Part shown: piece after piece, positions 7,782 to 17,158 of the stretch | Layout of the letters: the number at the start of each line of letters is the position of its first letter | Numbering within the stretch: the first letter of the stretch is position 1 | NCBI GenBank assembly: GCA_001443005.1 | Contig: LEKQ01000001.1 | Coordinates: 62,001 to 126,000 of the forward strand | DNA from: a bacterium GBS-1 | GTDB lineage: Bacteria > Synergistota > GBS-1 | Length of the DNA: 64,000 nucleotides | Direction of reading: 5' to 3' | Translations under genes and position numbers: made by a program | Notes under the pieces: model-generated | Told to the model about the DNA's origin: nothing | What the model saw: only the letters and a program-made list of their open reading frames with translations | Databases searched by the model: none

Positions 7782-10373
7782 ATGCTGGATAAAATGGGAC
7801 TTGAGAAGATAACCTCAGAAGTTTATAAGCTTTCGAAAAGGGAAGTTCTCTCAATTTTAGCCACAGATGAGAACTACGGCCTTTCCGAGGAGGAAGCCGA
7901 AAAGAGACTTAAAGAGTTTGGGCCTAATAGACTTAAGGAGGAGAAGAAAAAGAGCCCTATAGCCATATTTATAGCTCAATTTAGAAACGCCATGAGCTAT
8001 CTTCTAATGATAGCAGCATTTATAAGCTTTATCATTGGAGAAAATCTCGATGCTTTAGCCATCCTAGTAGTTCTCTTGGTAAACGCACTTATAGGTTTTC
8101 TCATGGAATACAGAGCAGAAAGGGCGATCGAGAGCCTTAAAAAGATGGTTTCAGTAAATGCCCTTGTTCTAAGGAATGGAAAGCTTAAAAAGACGTCGGC
8201 AGAAAGCCTTATTCCAGGAGACATAGTTATATTAGAAGCAGGTGATGTTGTCCCTGCAGATATAAGGATTTTGAACGCTGACAACCTTGAGGCTAATGAG
8301 AGCATACTTACAGGAGAAGCTCTTCCTGTTCCTAAAACGTCTGATCCTATTGAGAGTGAAGTGCCAATACATGACAGAAGCAACATACTTTTCGCAGGCA
8401 CTCATGTAGTGAGAGGCAGATGCAAGGGAGTGATTTACGCTACGGGTATGAGCACGGAATTCGGTAAAATATCTAAGGCCCTACAATCCGTTGAACCTCC
8501 TAAAACTCCAATGGAAAGAAGACTCGAAGCTTTAAGCGTTTTTATGTTGAAGCTTGTCGTTGCTATAGGCCTCTTAGTTTTCCTAATAGGTTGGTTAAAA
8601 GGCTATTCCTTACTTAGGATGCTTGAGACTTCTATAGCGCTCGCTGTTGCGGTTGTGCCAGAAGGACTTCCTATAGTTGTCACAATAACCCTCGCTATAG
8701 GAGTGCATAAAATGGCAAAGAGAAACGCCCTCATGAGAAACCTGGCTGCTGTTGAAACTCTGGGTAGCTCCAATATGATCTGCACGGATAAAACCGGAAC
8801 CCTAACCCAGAACAAAATGAAAGTTTCAAGTGAATTTTTCCCTAACGACTTTTCTAAGCGTGAGGCATTAAAGGTTGGAGCCTTGTGTAATAACGCTTAT
8901 ATTTCAGGAGATGATGTTATAGGAGATCCTATGGAAGTTGCTCTCCTTCAATGGATTTTAGACAGTGGCCTTAATCCTAACGAGATAAGAAGTAGTTTCC
9001 CTAGGATCAAAGAAATTCCCTTTGACTCCAAGATTATGAAAATGACAACTATCCACGAAGGTTTCGTAGCTATCAAAGGAGCTCCTGAAAAGCTACTTTT
9101 GGAGTGCAGATACATCTATGACGAAAATGGCAATCTGACCGTGTTAAGCCCGGATTTTAAGGAAAAAGTGCTTAGATCCATTGAAGAAGCTGCGTCACAA
9201 GCTATGAGAACGCTTGGCTTTGCCATTGGAAAGAGCGAAGAAGAACTGGTCTTTTTAGGCTTTGTGGGAATAAAGGATCCTCTCAGGCCAGAAGCTAAAG
9301 AAGCGGTTCAAAAGTGTAAAAATGCAGGGATAGATGTGGTGATGCTAACTGGTGATCATGTCTTAACGGCCTCCTCTATAGCTAAAGAAGTAGGCATAGC
9401 CGAGGAAAACTTACATCCACTCGAAGGCAAGGATATAGAAAAGCTATCAGATGAGGAGCTTTTTGAAGCCATAATTAAAAAGCGCGTAGGAGCAAGGGTA
9501 CTACCAGAGCACAAGCTAAGGATAGTTGATGTCCTTCAGAAAAAGGGTTATATCGTTGCTATGACGGGGGATGGAATCAATGACGTTATAGCCTTGAAGA
9601 AGGCTGATATCGGTATAGCGATGGGAATAGCTGGAACCGAGGTTACCAAGGAAGCCTCTGATATGATTCTTCAGGACGATAGATTCGCAACCATAGTTGA
9701 TGCTATTGAAGCCGGAAGAACTATCTTCGATAACATAAGGAAAGTTATATTTTACTTGCTCTCTTGTAACATAAGTGAAGTAATATTAATCCTATTTAGC
9801 ATACTTTGGGTAAAAGACCTCCTTCTCCTGCCCCTCCAGATACTTTGGATTAACTTAGTTACCGATGTTCTTCCTGCTTTAGGAATAGCATTCGATCCAC
9901 CTGAGGAAGGAGTGATGAAGAGACCACCAAGGAGGATTAATGAAAACCTTCTGCTTAAGAATCACTACCTAGGCATAACTATCTATGGATTAAGCTTCGC
10001 TTTTCTCTCTCTTATTACGGGCGTTATAGCCCTATCTTTTTCTGGTTTGGATACCCTTAAAGCTCGAAGTTATGTGTTTCATACTCTTGTCTTTTGTCAG
10101 ATAGCTCATCCCCTCACTTTAAGGGACAAGCCGGTGCTTTCAAACCCTAGGACGATTTTTTTAAATAAGGTGCTTTTAGTTGGAATTTTCGTCTCGGTTT
10201 TGTTGCAGATTTTAACCGCCTATGTTCCCTTGCTCCAGGAGGTTCTAAGAGTTACTCCTTTAAGCCCTAGGGAATGGTTAATGATTACGGGGGTAGCAAC
10301 TTTGCCACTCATTTTCAACAACTTCTACCGGATTTTTGTAAAAGAATCATTTAGAGGGTTGACAAGATCTTAA
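7782..10373 (+). CDS. P2-type cation (Ca2+-like) transporting ATPase
   Basis: 863 residues. Domains in order: cation ATPase N-domain; actuator with LTGEALPV (176-183; Ala in place of the usual Ser of TGES); phosphorylation site DKTGTLT with Asp336; MLTGDH; and hinge MTGDGINDV. Calcium-site residues of SERCA-type pumps are present: Glu in VPEGLP (292-297), Asn and Glu in helix 5 (SCNISEV), and Asn, Thr and Asp in helix 6 (INLVTDVLPA). It therefore probably exports Ca2+ (or Mn2+) from the cytoplasm using ATP. The ATG at 7782 follows GGGAG. It stands alone behind its own promoter. The last bases of the gene contain the -35 box of the trp promoter. Confidence 0.92.
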   Translation: MLDKMGLEKITSEVYKLSKREVLSILATDENYGLSEEEAEKRLKEFGPNRLKEEKKKSPIAIFIAQFRNAMSYLLMIAAFISFIIGENLDALAILVVLLVNALIGFLMEYRAERAIESLKKMVSVNALVLRNGKLKKTSAESLIPGDIVILEAGDVVPADIRILNADNLEANESILTGEALPVPKTSDPIESEVPIHDRSNILFAGTHVVRGRCKGVIYATGMSTEFGKISKALQSVEPPKTPMERRLEALSVFMLKLVVAIGLLVFLIGWLKGYSLLRMLETSIALAVAVVPEGLPIVVTITLAIGVHKMAKRNALMRNLAAVETLGSSNMICTDKTGTLTQNKMKVSSEFFPNDFSKREALKVGALCNNAYISGDDVIGDPMEVALLQWILDSGLNPNEIRSSFPRIKEIPFDSKIMKMTTIHEGFVAIKGAPEKLLLECRYIYDENGNLTVLSPDFKEKVLRSIEEAASQAMRTLGFAIGKSEEELVFLGFVGIKDPLRPEAKEAVQKCKNAGIDVVMLTGDHVLTASSIAKEVGIAEENLHPLEGKDIEKLSDEELFEAIIKKRVGARVLPEHKLRIVDVLQKKGYIVAMTGDGINDVIALKKADIGIAMGIAGTEVTKEASDMILQDDRFATIVDAIEAGRTIFDNIRKVIFYLLSCNISEVILILFSILWVKDLLLLPLQILWINLVTDVLPALGIAFDPPEEGVMKRPPRRINENLLLKNHYLGITIYGLSFAFLSLITGVIALSFSGLDTLKARSYVFHTLVFCQIAHPLTLRDKPVLSNPRTIFLNKVLLVGIFVSVLLQILTAYVPLLQEVLRVTPLSPREWLMITGVATLPLIFNNFYRIFVKESFRGLTRS

Positions 10374-10387
10374 AAGGACCTTATAAT
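10359..10387 (+). promoter_or_regulatory. trp operon promoter (perfect sigma-70 consensus)
   Basis: TTGACA (10359-10364), a 17-base spacer and TATAAT (10382-10387) match the consensus at all twelve positions. The -35 box and most of the spacer lie inside the last codons of the ATPase gene. Transcription would begin near 10394, leaving only about 20 bases before the leader-peptide start. No operator palindrome is evident, which fits control by attenuation. Confidence 0.88.
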
Positions 10388-10412
10388 TCTTATAAAAGGT
10401 GGGAATATAGGG

Positions 10413-10499
10413 ATGTTTAAGAAAAAGGAGAAAACCTTAAGCTTAAGTAATCATATAATGAATTGGTGGTGGCAGGCTTATAAGCCTGCCGCGGCATAA
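10413..10499 (+). CDS. trpL: trp leader peptide with three consecutive Trp codons
   Basis: A 28-codon frame starts at ATG 10413 with AGGTGGG at 10397-10403 (9-base spacing). It begins MFKKKEKT, contains NWWWQAY with TGG TGG TGG at 10464-10472, and stops at TAA 10497. An in-frame ATG at 10458 would give a 13-residue version but has no Shine-Dalgarno nearby. The Trp codons overlap segment 1 of the attenuator, as expected for a peptide whose translation senses charged tRNA-Trp. The stop codon lies just after segment 2, as in the enteric trp leaders. It lies directly between the trp promoter and trpE. Confidence 0.9.
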   Translation: MFKKKEKTLSLSNHIMNWWWQAYKPAAA

Positions 10500-10522
10500 A
10501 TTATAGGTTTTCTTTTAGTTAG

Positions 10523-10565
10523 AAAGGGCCGCGGCATGGTAAAGTGTCGCGGCCCTTTATTTTTA
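10523..10565 (+). terminator. trp attenuator terminator 1
   Basis: A 14-bp stem, 10523-10536 with 10545-10558 (one G-U pair), with an 8-base loop, followed by TTTATTTTT. It lies after the leader-peptide stop and before trpE. Its left arm is the same sequence that segment 2 can capture. Confidence 0.88.
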
Positions 10566-10570
10566 AAAAA

Positions 10571-10619
10571 GGGGCCGCTTCTTCAGATCAATCTGAAGTG
10601 GGCGGCCCCTCTCTTTTTA
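10571..10619 (+). terminator. trp attenuator terminator 2
   Basis: Outer stem GGGGCCGC (10571-10578) with GCGGCCCC (10602-10609). Inner stem CTTCAGA (10581-10587) with TCTGAAG (10592-10598). TCTCTTTTT follows. It ends about 11 bases before the trpE Shine-Dalgarno. The left arm can instead pair with the right arm of terminator 1. Confidence 0.82.
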
Positions 10620-10644
10620 GTTTAGTCTGAGGAGGTGAGCTTAT

Positions 10645-12138
10645 GTGGAGTTGAGGGAAGGCAAGTTTATCACATCTTATCTTGCTTTACCTATCCCTCC
10701 TGGTCTATTGGAGCATGAGGGCATTCGAAGGTTACTCCATGACAAAACTCACTCCTTTATCATGACCATTGACACAACTTATAGAGGAGGTAAGAAGCAT
10801 ACCTACATAGGTTTAGAGCCTCAGAGAACTTTTAAGCTACTTAAGCACCAGAGAAACTTCATCTTTGAAGTAAACGATAAGGAAAGCTCCAACCTCTCAT
10901 ATGATGTTGAAAAGTTCCTCGAGAAGAACCTGTTACTTGATCAACAACGCCCAAGTGGGCTCCCGCCTTTCTATGGAGGGTTATTCGGTTATATTGGTTA
11001 CGAGATGGTAGAAAGATGGGAAGAATTATATCACAACGATCGAGACAAAGGACTTAAAACAACCGAAGGGCTTCCAATCCTATATATGGGACTATTTGAT
11101 GAGCTCCTATGCATAGATCATGAAGACGGTAAGCTCTTTCTAATCAAAACTTTTCCTGAAGAGGAAATCGAAAATGCCTTAGCCTCTTTATTCAGAAAAG
11201 CATCCTCTTTAACCAGAAGCTTATCTAAAAATACGCCCCTTAAAGTAGAACGAGAAAGCCTGTACCTTAAGGGCTTTTCGTCTAACGTTTCTAAGAAAGA
11301 GTTCTTAAGTATGGTTGAACAGGCCAAAGAGCATATTAAAGCTGGAGAAGCTTTCCAGATAGTCATTTCACAAAGGTTTTCCTTTGAAAGTAACATTGAT
11401 CCACTGGATCTTTTCTTTTCTTTAATGGAAAAGAATCCATCCCCTTACATGTTTTTCATCAACTTTCCTGAGATAAAACTTATAGGAGCTTCGCCAGAAG
11501 TTTTGGTTGAAGTGAAAGGGAATAGGGTCATAACAAGACCCCTTGCAGGAACAAGAAGGAAAGGTAAAAGCCCCGAGGAAAATGAAAGATTAAAAGAGGA
11601 GCTCATTAAGGATGTAAAAGAACGTGCGGAACATGTCATGTTAGTAGACCTGGGAAGAAACGATCTTGGAAAGATATGTGAGCCTGGGAGTGTTACTGTT
11701 TCTGAGTTAATGAAAGTAGAGAGCTATCCTCATGTAATGCACATAGCTTCACAGGTAGAGGGAAAGCTGTCTAAAGGGGTTGCTCCTTTTGATGTCTTAA
11801 GGGCTGTATTTCCCGCCGGAACAGTTACAGGTGCTCCTAAGGTCAGAGCGATGGAGCTAATAAATGATATGGAAAGGGATCCTAGAGGTCCATATGCTGG
11901 TTCTGTCGGTTATATAAGCTTCTGCGGTGACATGGAGATGTGTATAACTATAAGAACCATATATTTCTACGATGGAAGGTTTCACATTCAAGTTGGAGCG
12001 GGCATTGTATCTGACTCCAATCCTGAGACCGAATATAGAGAAACGATCTACAAGGCAATGGGACTATTTAAAGCGGTAAAGGCACTCTTTAAAAATGTCC
12101 AACAAGTTAAGGAAAGTCTCTTTTTAAAGGAGGGATAA
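10645..12138 (+). CDS. trpE: Anthranilate synthase component I
   Basis: 497 residues. The chorismate-binding domain contains GEAFQIVISQRF, NPSPYMFFINF, IGASPEVLV, RPLAGTRRKG, LVDLGRNDLGKI and FPAGTVTGAPKVRAMELI. With TrpG it makes anthranilate from chorismate and glutamine. The N-terminal region has SFIMTIDTT where the Trp-feedback motif LLES is usual, so the tryptophan site may be altered; NPSPYMFF, also part of that site in E. coli, is intact. GTG 10645 follows GAGGAGGTGAG (10630-10638). An ATG two bases earlier (10643) is out of frame and reads Met-Trp-Ser-stop. It is the first structural gene of the trp operon, 4 bases before trpG. Confidence 0.95.
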   Translation: MELREGKFITSYLALPIPPGLLEHEGIRRLLHDKTHSFIMTIDTTYRGGKKHTYIGLEPQRTFKLLKHQRNFIFEVNDKESSNLSYDVEKFLEKNLLLDQQRPSGLPPFYGGLFGYIGYEMVERWEELYHNDRDKGLKTTEGLPILYMGLFDELLCIDHEDGKLFLIKTFPEEEIENALASLFRKASSLTRSLSKNTPLKVERESLYLKGFSSNVSKKEFLSMVEQAKEHIKAGEAFQIVISQRFSFESNIDPLDLFFSLMEKNPSPYMFFINFPEIKLIGASPEVLVEVKGNRVITRPLAGTRRKGKSPEENERLKEELIKDVKERAEHVMLVDLGRNDLGKICEPGSVTVSELMKVESYPHVMHIASQVEGKLSKGVAPFDVLRAVFPAGTVTGAPKVRAMELINDMERDPRGPYAGSVGYISFCGDMEMCITIRTIYFYDGRFHIQVGAGIVSDSNPETEYRETIYKAMGLFKAVKALFKNVQQVKESLFLKEG

Positions 12139-12141
12139 AAA

Positions 12142-12747
12142 ATGATATTAGTGATAGATAATTATGACTCGTTTACTTATAACCTCGTTCAATATCTTTC
12201 AGAGTTTGATGATGTAAGGGTGGTTAGAAATGACAAGATAACCCTAATGGATATAGAAGTTCTATCCCCTTCTCACATAGTAATCTCTCCCGGGCCAGGT
12301 ACCCCCGATGATGCAGGTATATCCAACGAGGCAATAAAGCATTTCGCCGGTCGCATTCCTATCTTAGGAATATGTCTAGGGCATCAGTGCATTGGAAGTG
12401 TTTTCGGTGGAAAGGTAGTTAGAGCCCGAGAACCCGTTCATGGTAAGGTCTCCCTGATTTACCACACAGGAAAGGGAATCCTAAAAGGATTACCATCTCC
12501 CTTTCTAGCTACAAGATACCATTCTCTAATAGTTCAAAGAGAAACACTTCCCTCCGATCTTGAAATAGTAGCTGAAACCGATGAAGGTGAAATTATGGGA
12601 ATAATGCATGTAAAGTTTCCCATCTTTGGGCTCCAATTTCATCCAGAATCTGTCCTAACCACTGAGGGAAAGAGGATACTTAAAAACTTCCTAGCCATTG
12701 GGTCAACATCGAGGAGGGAATACAGCTATGTCAGCAGAGCTATATAA
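12142..12747 (+). CDS. trpG: Anthranilate synthase component II (glutamine amidotransferase)
   Basis: 201 residues, a class I glutamine amidotransferase. It has VISPGPGTPDDAG for the oxyanion region, the nucleophile Cys in ILGICLGHQ (about residue 79) and the His-Glu pair in LQFHPESVLT. It supplies ammonia to TrpE. It is a free-standing subunit, not fused to trpE or trpD, and AAAGGAGGG lies just before ATG 12142. The 3' end overlaps trpD by 20 bases. With no separate pabA/pabB visible, it might also serve folate synthesis, but that is speculative. Confidence 0.95.
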   Translation: MILVIDNYDSFTYNLVQYLSEFDDVRVVRNDKITLMDIEVLSPSHIVISPGPGTPDDAGISNEAIKHFAGRIPILGICLGHQCIGSVFGGKVVRAREPVHGKVSLIYHTGKGILKGLPSPFLATRYHSLIVQRETLPSDLEIVAETDEGEIMGIMHVKFPIFGLQFHPESVLTTEGKRILKNFLAIGSTSRREYSYVSRAI

Positions 12748-13756
12748 GGCTTTCTTAGAAGCATTATTGAGCGGAAAGGGGCTCTCAGCAAAAGAAGCAG
12801 AAATCCTCATGGATGCGATTACTGAGAAAGCCTTTACCGATATTCAAACGGCAGCCTTACTCATAGCATTAAGAGCTAAAGGGGAAAACTCAGAGGAGAT
12901 CAGTGGAGCAGCTAAGGCACTGCTTAAAAAAGCATGCAAAATAGAAGTTAATGGGGATATCTTAGTTGATACCTGTGGAACGGGAGGAGATATGCTTCAA
13001 ACTTTTAACGTTTCTACAACTGTTGCAATTGTCTGCGCAGCAGGGGGAATCCCCGTAGCTAAACATGGGAATAAGTCTGTCTCAAGCAAAAGCGGAAGCG
13101 CTGACCTTCTCTTAGAGATGGGTGCTAAAGTAGAGCTTACACCGGAGGGAATAAAACGCTGTATCGAAGGTTTAAAGTTGGGTTTCATCTTCGCTCCAGC
13201 TTACCATCAAGCTCTTAAGAACGCTGCTCTCATAAGAAGGGAGCTTGGCACAAAGACTATATTCAACCTCTTGGGTCCCCTTATAAACCCAGCTTTTCCC
13301 ACACATCAGCTGGTAGGAGTTTTCGACGAAAGGTTTCTTAAACCAATAGCTGAAACCCTCAGGAAGCTTGGAAGAAAAAGGGCGATGGTAGTCCACGGGT
13401 GTGGAGCTGACGAGCTTTGCGTCTGGGGAGAAAACAAAGTTGCCTTCTTAAAGGAGGATGGCAGTATAGATGAGTTTTCCTTCTTTCCTGAGGATGTAGG
13501 GATAAAAAGGAGTTCCATTGAAGAGGTAAAAGGCGGGCTTCCTCACGATAATGCTCTTATATCGCTTAGGATACTTAGCGGTGAAAGGGGTGCGAAACGC
13601 GACATGGTTCTTCTTAATGCAGGGGCGGTTTTCCTATTAGTGGGATGGGCAAGAGACCTAAGGGAGGGGATTTCAATCGCCTCCGAAATTATCGACAGTG
13701 GAAAGGCAAAGGAAAAGCTTAACGAGTTTATAAGATTTACTAAGGAGCTGATCTAA
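12728..13756 (+). CDS. trpD: Anthranilate phosphoribosyltransferase
   Basis: 342 residues. It has DTCGTGGDMLQTFNVST for phosphoribosyl pyrophosphate binding, KHGNKSVSSKSGSADLLLEMG for the Mg/anthranilate site and IFNLLGPLINP. It joins anthranilate to PRPP. ATG 12728 is preferred over the longer frame from 12698 because AGGAGG lies at 12712-12717, the usual distance upstream, and homologues start near here. It overlaps trpG by 20 bases and ends 2 bases before trpC. Confidence 0.95.
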   Translation: MSAELYKAFLEALLSGKGLSAKEAEILMDAITEKAFTDIQTAALLIALRAKGENSEEISGAAKALLKKACKIEVNGDILVDTCGTGGDMLQTFNVSTTVAIVCAAGGIPVAKHGNKSVSSKSGSADLLLEMGAKVELTPEGIKRCIEGLKLGFIFAPAYHQALKNAALIRRELGTKTIFNLLGPLINPAFPTHQLVGVFDERFLKPIAETLRKLGRKRAMVVHGCGADELCVWGENKVAFLKEDGSIDEFSFFPEDVGIKRSSIEEVKGGLPHDNALISLRILSGERGAKRDMVLLNAGAVFLLVGWARDLREGISIASEIIDSGKAKEKLNEFIRFTKELI

Positions 13757-13758
13757 AA

Positions 13759-14535
13759 ATGGGGTTAAATGTTCTATTCGAGATAGTAAATAGAAAAAAG
13801 CAAACGCTTGAGGCCTCAAAGAGAAAAGGGAGAGAACTATTTGAACTTCTTAAGAAGAAAGATTTCTTCTTGATAGGAGAAATAAAGATTTCATCCCCAA
13901 GCGCAGGGGTGATAAAAGGGGATATCGATGTAGTAAAACAAGTTAAGGCCTATGAGAAGGGAGGGGCAAGTGCCATTTCCGTAGTCACAGAAGAAAGCTT
14001 CTTTAAAGGAAGCATAGATCTTTTGAGAGAGGTTAGAAAGAACACGGAACTTCCCGTATTAAGAAAGGATTTCATAATCGATCCTATTCAAGTTTACGAA
14101 AGCTTTTTCAATGGAGCGGACCTTTTACTGCTTATAAGCAGGATACTTTCTTTAAGGGAGCTTAAGTACTTCATTGATCTTTGTGAAACTTTAGGGATTA
14201 TTCCTTTAGTAGAGGTTCATTCGCACAAGGATATATATAAAGCCTACAAAGCTGGAGCTTATTTCATAGGAATAAACAACAGGGACCTTAGAACCTTCAA
14301 GGTTTCCGTGGAGCATACTGTGAGACTTCTACCAATCATAAGGAAGGTCTTTAACGATAGAGAAATTATAGTGATATCTGAAAGTGGTATATCTACCCCT
14401 GAACACACACACCTGCTGAAGAGCCATAGGGTTGACGGAATTCTTGTAGGATATTCCTTGCTTACAAGCGATAACCCTGCAGAGAAAATCAAGGAGCTCC
14501 TACTTAGGGAGGGTGATACCGTTGATCGAAGTTAA
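13759..14535 (+). CDS. trpC: Indole-3-glycerol phosphate synthase
   Basis: 258 residues, a TIM barrel. The signatures are GEIKISSPSAGVI (catalytic Lys), LRKDFIIDPIQVYE, ADLLLLISRIL, LVEVHSHKD, IGINNRDLRTF and VISESGIS. It closes the ring of carboxyphenylaminodeoxyribulose phosphate to indole-glycerol phosphate. AAGGAG lies 11 bases before ATG 13759, inside trpD. It is monofunctional: trpF follows as a separate gene, overlapping by about 14 bases. Confidence 0.95.
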   Translation: MGLNVLFEIVNRKKQTLEASKRKGRELFELLKKKDFFLIGEIKISSPSAGVIKGDIDVVKQVKAYEKGGASAISVVTEESFFKGSIDLLREVRKNTELPVLRKDFIIDPIQVYESFFNGADLLLLISRILSLRELKYFIDLCETLGIIPLVEVHSHKDIYKAYKAGAYFIGINNRDLRTFKVSVEHTVRLLPIIRKVFNDREIIVISESGISTPEHTHLLKSHRVDGILVGYSLLTSDNPAEKIKELLLREGDTVDRS

Positions 14536-15145
14536 AATCTGTGGAATTACAAGGGAAGAGGATCTTAAAAAGGCAATAGAATTGGGTTTTGACGCTGTTG
14601 GGTTCATCTTGTGTGAAAGTAAAAGACAGATTACTCTTCCGAAGGTTAAGTCATTTCTGAATCTAATACCTCCATTCATGTCAGTTGTAGCAGTTGTCAA
14701 AGATCCATCAATAGAAACCCTCACGGAAATAGTCAGAGCGAAAGTTTTCACCCATGTTCAATTCCACGGTATGGAACCACCTGAAATGCTTGTAGACTTC
14801 CCCTTAAAAAGGATAAAGGCAATTCCCATAGAGGGAGAGGAGAGTTTAAATCTAACCAGTGTATATTTTAACGTCGCTGATTACTTTCTATTCGATACAA
14901 AAGTCGGAAATAGTTTTGGTGGAACAGGAAAGAGTTTCAACTGGTCTATTCTGAAAAAGTATGATAGATCTAAGCCCTTTATACTATCAGGTGGCATTAA
15001 CGTTAACAATTTAGAAATGGCAATTAAAGAGCTCTCTCCTCATGGGATAGATGTCAATAGCTCCCTGGAAAGGGAGCCTGGAGTTAAGGACCACAAGAAA
15101 ATGGAAGAGTTTATGGGTTTACTTAGATCTCTAAGAGGAAGGTGA
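14522..15145 (+). CDS. trpF: Phosphoribosylanthranilate isomerase
   Basis: About 207 residues, a TIM barrel. [26 protein letters not shown] carries the catalytic Cys, VAVVKDPS and [18 protein letters not shown] the Asp and phosphate-binding loop, and [11 protein letters not shown] the other phosphate contact. TTG 14522 is chosen because GGAGG (14508-14512) ends 9 bases upstream; GTG 14513 has the Shine-Dalgarno directly against it. A separate trpF beside hisA argues against a shared PriA-type isomerase. Confidence 0.93.
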
Positions 15146-15150
15146 ATGCC

Positions 15151-16347
15151 ATGGTTGTTGGAAGAGAGGCCCCTGGCTATTTTGGTCCCTTCGGGGGGAG
15201 GTTCGTTCCCGAAACGCTCATACCCGCACTAGAAGAGCTTGAAAGAACATATCTAACGCTTAAAGATGACCCCTCCTTCAAAGAGGAATTGAGCCTAATT
15301 CTAAGAGATTACTGCGGAAGGCCCACTCCTCTCTATTATGCAGAAAGGCTATCTAAGGAAAATGGAAGAGCAAAGATCTACCTAAAGAGAGAGGATCTCG
15401 CTCACACAGGTGCTCATAAGATAAACAACGCTGTGGGACAGATACTTCTTGCCAAGTATATGGGAAAGAGGAGAATAATAGCTGAAACTGGGGCTGGTCA
15501 ACATGGTGTCGCAGTTGCAACAGTCTGTGCGAAGTTTAACATGGAATGTTGCATATACATGGGAGAAGAAGATATAAAGAGACAGAAACTCAACGTATAT
15601 AGGATGAAGATGCTAGGGGCTGAGGTCATTCCAGTATCATCGGGAAGCAAAACCTTAAAAGATGCTACAAACGAGGCTATCAGAGATTGGGTTTCAAACG
15701 TAGATACAACTTATTATCTCATCGGTTCCGTTGTTGGACCTCACCCCTACCCTACCATAGTCAGAGACTTTCAGAGGATCATCGGTGAGGAGACGAGGGA
15801 ACAAATTTTAGCTAAAGAAGGGCGCTTGCCAGACTACATTATAGCTTGTGTTGGTGGAGGAAGTAACGCAATTGGGATATTCCATCCCTTTCTGGAGTAT
15901 TCTCAGGTCAAGCTTATAGGAGTTGAAGCTGGAGGGAAAGGTTTAACGTCGGGGCTTCACGCTGCATCGCTTAATGCAGGTAGAATTGGAGTGCTACATG
16001 GCTGTAAATCGTATGTTCTTCAGGATGAAGACGGTCAGATAGTTAATCCCTATTCCATTTCTGCAGGTCTGGATTACCCAGGCGTTGGACCTGAACACGC
16101 CTTTCTTAAGGAAATTGGCAGAGCTACCTATGTGACGGTTACGGATGAGGAGGCTCTTGAAGCCGTTATGATCCTCGCAAGAAGCGAGGGAATAATAGCT
16201 GCTTTAGAAAGCGCCCATGCTGTTGCCTATGCCCTTAGGCTGTCCAAAACTGTGGATGAGGAAAGTATAGTAATTGTGAATCTCTCTGGCAGAGGGGATA
16301 AGGATATGTCAACTTTAATAGACCATTTCAGAATGGGGGTAGAATAA
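15151..16347 (+). CDS. trpB: Tryptophan synthase beta chain
   Basis: 398 residues, TrpB1 type. [13 protein letters not shown] is at the N-terminus, the pyridoxal phosphate lysine is in [13 protein letters not shown], phosphate is bound by [10 protein letters not shown], and GRGDKD is at the end. It makes tryptophan from indole and serine in complex with TrpA, encoded one base downstream. ATG 15151 is chosen, with AGAGGAAGG about 8 bases upstream; a GTG at 15142 overlaps the trpF stop and is the alternative. Confidence 0.96.
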
Positions 16348-16348
16348 T

Positions 16349-17158
16349 ATGAGACACGAAAACCCCTTTGTAAAGGCATTTTCTGGTAAAAAAGCTTTGA
16401 TTCCCTTTATCACGGTAGGTTATCCATATTGGGATGTATTTGAAAGATTGGTCGAAGGGATGGTTCAGGCCGGAGCAGACATTATAGAGATAGGAATTCC
16501 ATTCTCAGACCCATTGGCTGACGGGATAACCATACAGAAGTCTAGCCAAATTGCTATTGAACATGGCGCAACCCTCAAGAGGGCTCTTAAAGTCATTGAG
16601 TCGCTTTCCCCCAAAGTTAAAGTCCCCATAGTTATAATGAGTTATTATAACCCTATTCTTTCCTATGGGATCGAAAGCTTCGTTAAAGATGCAAAATGCG
16701 CTGGTGTATCAGGTGTAATAATTCCGGACCTTCCTTTTGATGAAAGAGAACCATTTTACCACCTCTGCAAGGAGAGGGGAATAAGCCCCATACTTATGAT
16801 TACCCCCGTCACCCCTCACGAGAGGCTTGAAAGGATTATTAAAGACGCTGATGGCTTTATTTATTGCGTTTCGCTTGTAGGGCTTACGGGAGATAGTAAA
16901 AAGCCGATATTCCAATGGATATCAAGGGAGCTCCCAAAGATAAGGGAAGTTTCTCCAGTTCCAATAGTGCTCGGCTTTGGTATCGACTCTACTGACACAG
17001 CAATGAGAGTTTCTCCTTTCACCGACGGGATTGTTGTGGGAAGTGCCTTGATAAAGATGATCGAAAGAGAAATATCCCTGAGCTCTTGGACAGAAGATGA
17101 CCTTCTCGATAAGGTGAAAAACTTTATAAAATCTTTTAAAAAATCACTGAAAGACTAG
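16349..17158 (+). CDS. trpA: Tryptophan synthase alpha chain
   Basis: 269 residues, a TIM barrel. Catalytic Glu is in AGADIIEIGIPFSDPLADG and catalytic Asp in GVIIPDLPFDE; YCVSLVGLTG and LGFGIDS bind the phosphate. It splits indole-glycerol phosphate and passes indole to TrpB. It is the last gene of the trp operon; no clear terminator follows in the 79 bases before gntR. Confidence 0.96.
   Translation: MRHENPFVKAFSGKKALIPFITVGYPYWDVFERLVEGMVQAGADIIEIGIPFSDPLADGITIQKSSQIAIEHGATLKRALKVIESLSPKVKVPIVIMSYYNPILSYGIESFVKDAKCAGVSGVIIPDLPFDEREPFYHLCKERGISPILMITPVTPHERLERIIKDADGFIYCVSLVGLTGDSKKPIFQWISRELPKIREVSPVPIVLGFGIDSTDTAMRVSPFTDGIVVGSALIKMIEREISLSSWTEDDLLDKVKNFIKSFKKSLKD

Follow-up and report, generated by a model that had tools for sequence, protein, structure and literature searches.

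The trp operon in the analysed window, a stretch of 64,000 nucleotides from a bacterium GBS-1 (Synergistota), is preceded by a leader with tandem Trp codons and two consecutive terminators, an arrangement that is real and whose conservation extends far past the close relatives. The leader is quite probably a ribosome-mediated tryptophan attenuator that works as a relay over both terminators. Such a chain was proposed in the first-pass annotation, with six RNA segments that can pair 1:2, 2:3, 3:4, 4:5 and 5:6 and with 3:4 (T1) and 5:6 (T2) both acting as terminators. All five pairings are present in the sequence and in the folds, both hairpins are followed by U-tracts, and the leader peptide with its three Trp codons is found at exactly the coordinates given there.

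Read 5' to 3', the locus has the order promoter, leader ORF, hairpin 1:2, T1, T2, the trpE Shine-Dalgarno sequence and trpEGDCFBA (Table 1). The promoter region overlaps the 3' terminal bases of a P-type ATPase gene, and from the placement of the promoter the transcript is predicted to start at about 10393–10395. The short leader ORF contains tandem codons for the product of the operon, as in ribosome-mediated attenuators, and is predicted to be translated. The U-tracts located 3' of the two terminator hairpins are TTTATTTTT and TCTCTTTTT, the second one belonging to T2. A scan of the window against Rfam gave no match to any leader model or T-box.

Table 1. Features of the two-terminator trp leader in the window, and its second copy in the same genome.
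Feature	Position	Strand	Basis
Sigma-70 promoter, TTGACA-17-TATAAT	10359..10387	+	consensus 12/12
Probable RBS of the leader peptide, Shine-Dalgarno-like AAAAGGTGGG	10394..10403	+	sequence
Leader peptide ORF MFKKKEKTLSLSNHIMNWWWQAYKPAAA, 28 codons, TGG TGG TGG at 10464-10472	10413..10499	+	sequence; NWWWQ kept in relatives
Hairpin 1:2; segment 1 (10471-10478) with left part of segment 2 (10483-10490)	10471..10490	+	folding
Segment 2; 10487-10495 pairs with 10528-10536 of segment 3 (antiterminator 2:3, 9 bp)	10482..10496	+	folding P 0.99; phylum-wide z -9.9
Segment 3, T1 left arm; 3:4 is 10526-10535 with 10546-10555, longer T1 stem 10523-10558	10523..10536	+	folding
Segment 4, T1 right arm (to 10558), then U-tract 10556-10564	10545..10564	+	folding
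4:5 anti-T2 helix; 10549-10558 with 10568-10578, 10 pairs, one bulged G	10549..10578	+	folding and comparative support
Terminator T2; 5:6 is 10571-10578 with 10602-10609, whole hairpin 10570-10610, then U-tract TCTCTTTTT	10570..10618	+	folding, relatives
trpE Shine-Dalgarno sequence, outside T2	10629..10638	+	sequence, folding
trpE, trpG, trpD, trpC, trpF, trpB, trpA operon	10645..17158	+	NCBIfam
Second copy, own genome (L077), leader ...SNNWWWQVL, then tiny ORF and sodium/solute symporter	G000:C1:267643-267796	-	

The leader region folds better than its shuffled versions (z -8.8, none of 200 shuffles as good). In computed folding with the ribosome placed at the stop codon, both terminator hairpins form with P(3:4)=1.00 and P(5:6)=1.00. 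Folding with segment 1 masked and unmasked, which the first-pass annotation had put forward as a check, gave P(2:3)=0.99 when segment 1 was masked and segment 4 still unmade, and T1 together with T2 at equilibrium; with 2:3 in place and segment 6 still unmade, 4:5 is the best structure. Helices 2:3 and 3:4 are mutually exclusive, as expected for an antiterminator and an intrinsic terminator, and both are specific to their own partners (z -9.9 and -14.7, see below). At equilibrium T1 is favoured over 2:3 and T2 over 4:5, with -35.3 kcal/mol for the fold containing 5:6 and -24.7 kcal/mol for the 4:5 fold computed before segment 6 is made. A switch cannot be shown by equilibrium folding of the full window, in which T1 and T2 win every time, and since T2 wins at equilibrium the switch must be kinetic.

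When tryptophan is plentiful, the ribosome would pass the three Trp codons, reach the stop codon and cover segment 2, which should allow 3:4 to form as T1. For a polymerase escaping T1, segment 4 would be locked in T1 so that 5:6 forms as T2, and with the stops in series very little might leak through. Under shortage of charged tRNA-Trp, the ribosome should stall on the Trp codons and cover segment 1, whereupon segment 2 would pair with segment 3 and leave segment 4 free; the free segment 4 would pair with segment 5 and leave segment 6 free, neither terminator would be formed in time, and the trp operon would be transcribed. We infer that the ribosome stalls, that the leak is low, that 2:3 prevails kinetically over 3:4 and 4:5 over 5:6, and that 4:5 defeats T2; the relay rests on co-transcriptional kinetics, and this is its main uncertainty. 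Classical attenuators are likewise understood as a race between folding and the polymerase. Without any relief of T2 the operon should hardly be expressible, and the 4:5 relay is the only means of relief seen in the sequence.

The comparison set consisted of 188 genomes (species) from 63 genera of the host phylum, for which the gene content, with a TRAP transporter, a WhiA-like gene and amidohydrolases, also suggests Synergistota. The first-pass annotation had considered leader-peptide control unexpected in this kind of bacterium, an expectation that has to be abandoned, since a covariance model of the element matches 69 of the 188 genomes and 38 of the 63 genera. Absence of the TGG run from close relatives had been named as evidence against the chain; the run is still present in the two same-family relatives having trpE (G001 and G002, of another genus, with TrpE 55–61% identical), as are the whole NWWWQ motif, hairpin 1:2, T1 and T2. 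The trpE loci were gathered by TrpE protein similarity alone, and all 33 trpE leaders bearing a WWW run among the phylum loci examined have both T1 and T2, with T1 ending about 80–140 nt and T2 about 140–195 nt past the first Trp codon. As this set was chosen without regard to T2, the conservation of T2 is not circular. One locus from another phylum (L016, Desulfobacula), where a WWW run lies some 1.2 kb ahead of trpE, was set aside, and about a dozen trpE loci, mostly of families f7 and f10, are without a WWW leader. A U-tract is located behind T1 in 55 of 63 elements and behind T2 in 61 of 63, and the spacer between T1 and T2 is 8–37 nt long and unconserved. Some model matches (L113, L140 and L147) were dropped because they were terminators at gene ends or real elements read in antisense. 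No match to the covariance model was found in 300 genomes from the phylum of Domibacillus (L007), a result that speaks only for close sequence relatives. In the upper part of T1 outside family f1 (for example L021:1224-1272) the sequence GGAGGCRGRTCCY is almost invariant across families, a constancy that exceeds the needs of pairing; it may serve 2:3 or bind something.

The antiterminator pairing 2:3 is classical, and 3:4 and 5:6 are simply hairpins; the new claim is helix 4:5. GCCGCGGC is a palindrome and the arms have GGCC-type motifs in common, so some 3:6 cross-pairing is expected for free, and the claim for 4:5 therefore needed comparative tests, which it passed. A total of 65 elements were segmented by the columns of the covariance model, and duplex energies of own and swapped partners were compared for the 46 elements with less than 80% identity. 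Own partners were strongly preferred in 3:4 (z -14.7), 5:6 (z -19.1) and 2:3 (z -9.9), and the complementarity of segment 4 to the left arm of T2, noted at the outset and amounting to 10 pairs in the window, gave z -5.2 with none of 20000 permutations as good. The control pairs 2:5, 1:4, 2:6, 1:5 and 1:3 had z between -1.1 and +0.9, while the off-chain pairs 3:6 (z -2.4) and 2:4 (z -2.9) also deviate mildly, as chained complementarity would lead one to expect, which lessens the specificity. Of the four helices, 4:5 has the weakest statistics, its own partner being above average in 30 of 46 elements. An earlier test with 17 trpE leaders gave z -3.9 for 4:5, and automatic calling of terminator pairs, in which several elements were mis-registered, gave a weaker z -3.0, for which reason the covariance-model columns were used instead. 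At the sequence level this comparison demonstrates the parts and pairings, their conservation and the own-partner specificity of 2:3, 3:4, 4:5 and 5:6.

In many lineages (for example L022/L023, L034/L041, L039, L040) segment 4 pairs beyond the T2 stem into the T2 loop, with CTCTTCAAGGCC pairing with GGCCTTGAAGAG in L022 and CTTCATGGCC with GGTCATGAAG in L034, and the T2 hairpin itself gains nothing from the loop bases that are contacted. On a core alignment of 18 elements registered by hand, the 4:5 helix beats every slid register, and its contact with the T2 loop has a covariation score of 0.297 versus 0.148 in shuffles (0/500) and 15 doubly changed cells versus 4.6. The covariation in 4:5 and 5:6 that the first-pass annotation had asked for among relatives is accordingly seen across lineages, but in the own family 4:5 of the trp leaders is nearly invariant, and it is in more distant relatives and in the symporter copies described below that the compensatory 4:5 changes occur.

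It could be argued that only T1 is regulated, T2 being a leaky fail-safe of constant modest efficiency and 4:5 a by-product of similar GC-rich arms, as T2 is thermodynamically stronger than 4:5, segments 3 and 6 are also complementary, and the GGCC motifs recur in T1 and T2. This is rather unlikely, as own 4:5 partners beat swapped ones in every permutation, the pairing reaches into the T2 loop and covaries there, segment 5 is more often nearer to segment 4's complement than to segment 3 (11 versus 2 elements at less than 70% identity, 24 versus 12 at less than 80%), and a T2 both strong and constitutive would leave the operon silent. The same comparison of segment 5, together with the 4:5 covariation, led us to reject as the main cause a tandem duplication of T1 into T2, by which segment 5 would resemble segment 3 and pair with segment 4 through descent, without function. 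Arm sequences are indeed shared between T1 and T2 in family f1 (L002–L004), but outside f1 the two hairpins are unlike in size and sequence, the pair is kept across 38 genera, and compensatory 4:5 changes are seen where segments 3 and 5 differ, which makes this origin very improbable. Even less credence is given to a T2 that senses a second signal of its own, be it a protein, a metabolite or another codon; tandem attenuators whose inputs are separate, such as mgtCBR, are known (PMC3641672), but here the spacer is too small for a second ORF or an aptamer, Rfam gives no matches and the genes are Trp-related throughout. Least probable of all is a T2 that acts mainly in translation or in stabilising the 5' end of the trp mRNA and not as a terminator. 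T2 does lie directly 5' of the trpE Shine-Dalgarno sequence (10629), but it does not overlap this sequence, and a U-tract follows T2 in nearly all elements.

Besides trpE, the two-terminator element precedes trpD (L080, L115, L117, L123, L143, L144), trpC (L118, L120) and trpB (L114, L116, L129, L137, L141, L142), and also several transporter genes, namely a sodium/solute symporter (PF00474) in the own genome (L077), G003 (L078) and G002 (L112), an NhaC-like antiporter (L079) and a likely subunit of an energy-coupling transporter (L146). Apart from the symporter and the window's own trp operon, the targets were named by eye from their sequences. T2 of the copy in the own genome has a poor U-tract, and the symporter behind the three copies is predicted to be a tryptophan uptake system. 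In L121 (301-468) and L122 (1743-1915) a two-terminator leader with Phe-Tyr-Tyr-Trp codons replacing the Trp run precedes a membrane protein, which has no Pfam or NCBIfam matches, and an amidohydrolase; this leader is predicted to be a Tyr or aromatic amino acid attenuator. Two further leaders have targets read by eye. The one in L119 (301-449), with the peptide VNLCWWRRL, is located ahead of a phenylacetate-CoA ligase-like gene, where Trp control of aromatic catabolism is possible, and the one in L128 (301-437) is located ahead of genes for a small protein and for a protein like aldehyde ferredoxin oxidoreductase, where a Trp signal might be tied to amino-acid fermentation.

In the phylum of Desulfobacula the covariance model matches 25 of 395 genomes. 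Eleven of these leaders (L155–L165) were read in detail, with segments paired by explicitly named hairpins; all have T1, T2 and a 4:5 helix of about 9–13 bp, but they were found by a model that includes T2 and so do not indicate what share of the trp leaders of that phylum has this layout. They are located ahead of trpE, trpD and a TrpB-like gene, and the leader is typically NNWWWWNL.GR..RR, many ending in the conserved GR..RR. Desulfobacula itself (L016/L148) has one terminator. The eleven are like the leader of the window in their Trp codons, T1 and T2, and 4:5 complementarity, and differ from it in the leader peptide and in the hairpin sequences. We consider it reasonably likely that these elements constitute an attenuator class, present in at least two phyla and ahead of several aromatic amino-acid genes, whereby two serial terminators would be relieved by a single stalled ribosome through 2:3 and then 4:5, and repression would be multiplied with a single sensor.

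Textbook attenuation is drawn with one terminator. The enteric trp attenuator trpL has segments 1–4, a leader peptide with Trp codons, a choice among 1:2, 2:3 and 3:4, and one terminator; it resembles the window in the Trp-codon leader ahead of a trp operon and in this choice, but is without 4:5 or 5:6, whereas the window has six segments and two terminators. The enteric his leader does have six segments, with AB, CD and EF alternating with BC and DE, and a U-run is described after EF only (PMC10989985). As the first-pass annotation had supposed, no trp leader of the present form was found described, but the six-segment relay as such is known. The his leader shares with the window the tandem codons for the product amino acid and the relay of 1:2, 3:4 and 5:6 versus 2:3 and 4:5; it differs in having His codons and a U-run described on its last hairpin only, whereas the middle hairpin 3:4 of the window is also an intrinsic terminator, with a T1 U-tract in the window and in most of the elements. 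The gammaproteobacterial rimP leader has a second terminator in tandem and a possible antiterminator, with NusA as the proposed effector (PMC2965389), and is like the window in its tandem terminators but without an amino-acid leader peptide. Salmonella mgtCBR has two attenuation steps and two ORFs that respond to the independent signals ATP and proline (PMC3641672); it is like the window in having two steps in one leader, one of them with a codon-rich ORF, and unlike it in that the two signals are separate and not one signal relayed through both. No leader-peptide attenuator with two serial terminators was found in the literature, where older subscription papers could contain one, and no report was found of peptide-sensed Trp control in the host phylum; the main text of a motif survey that includes Thermovirga lienii (Synergistetes) is without a trp leader (PMC6429828). 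What is new here, within known ribosome-mediated attenuation, is thus that 3:4, in the middle, is an intrinsic terminator too.

By defeating the first stop, helix 2:3 would also hand the decision on to the second, which would explain a low leak and full induction together, and the design would amount to a natural cascade whose order of events can be tested. The element would extend peptide-sensed Trp control to the host phylum, across which a small Trp regulon of biosynthesis and uptake genes is predicted.
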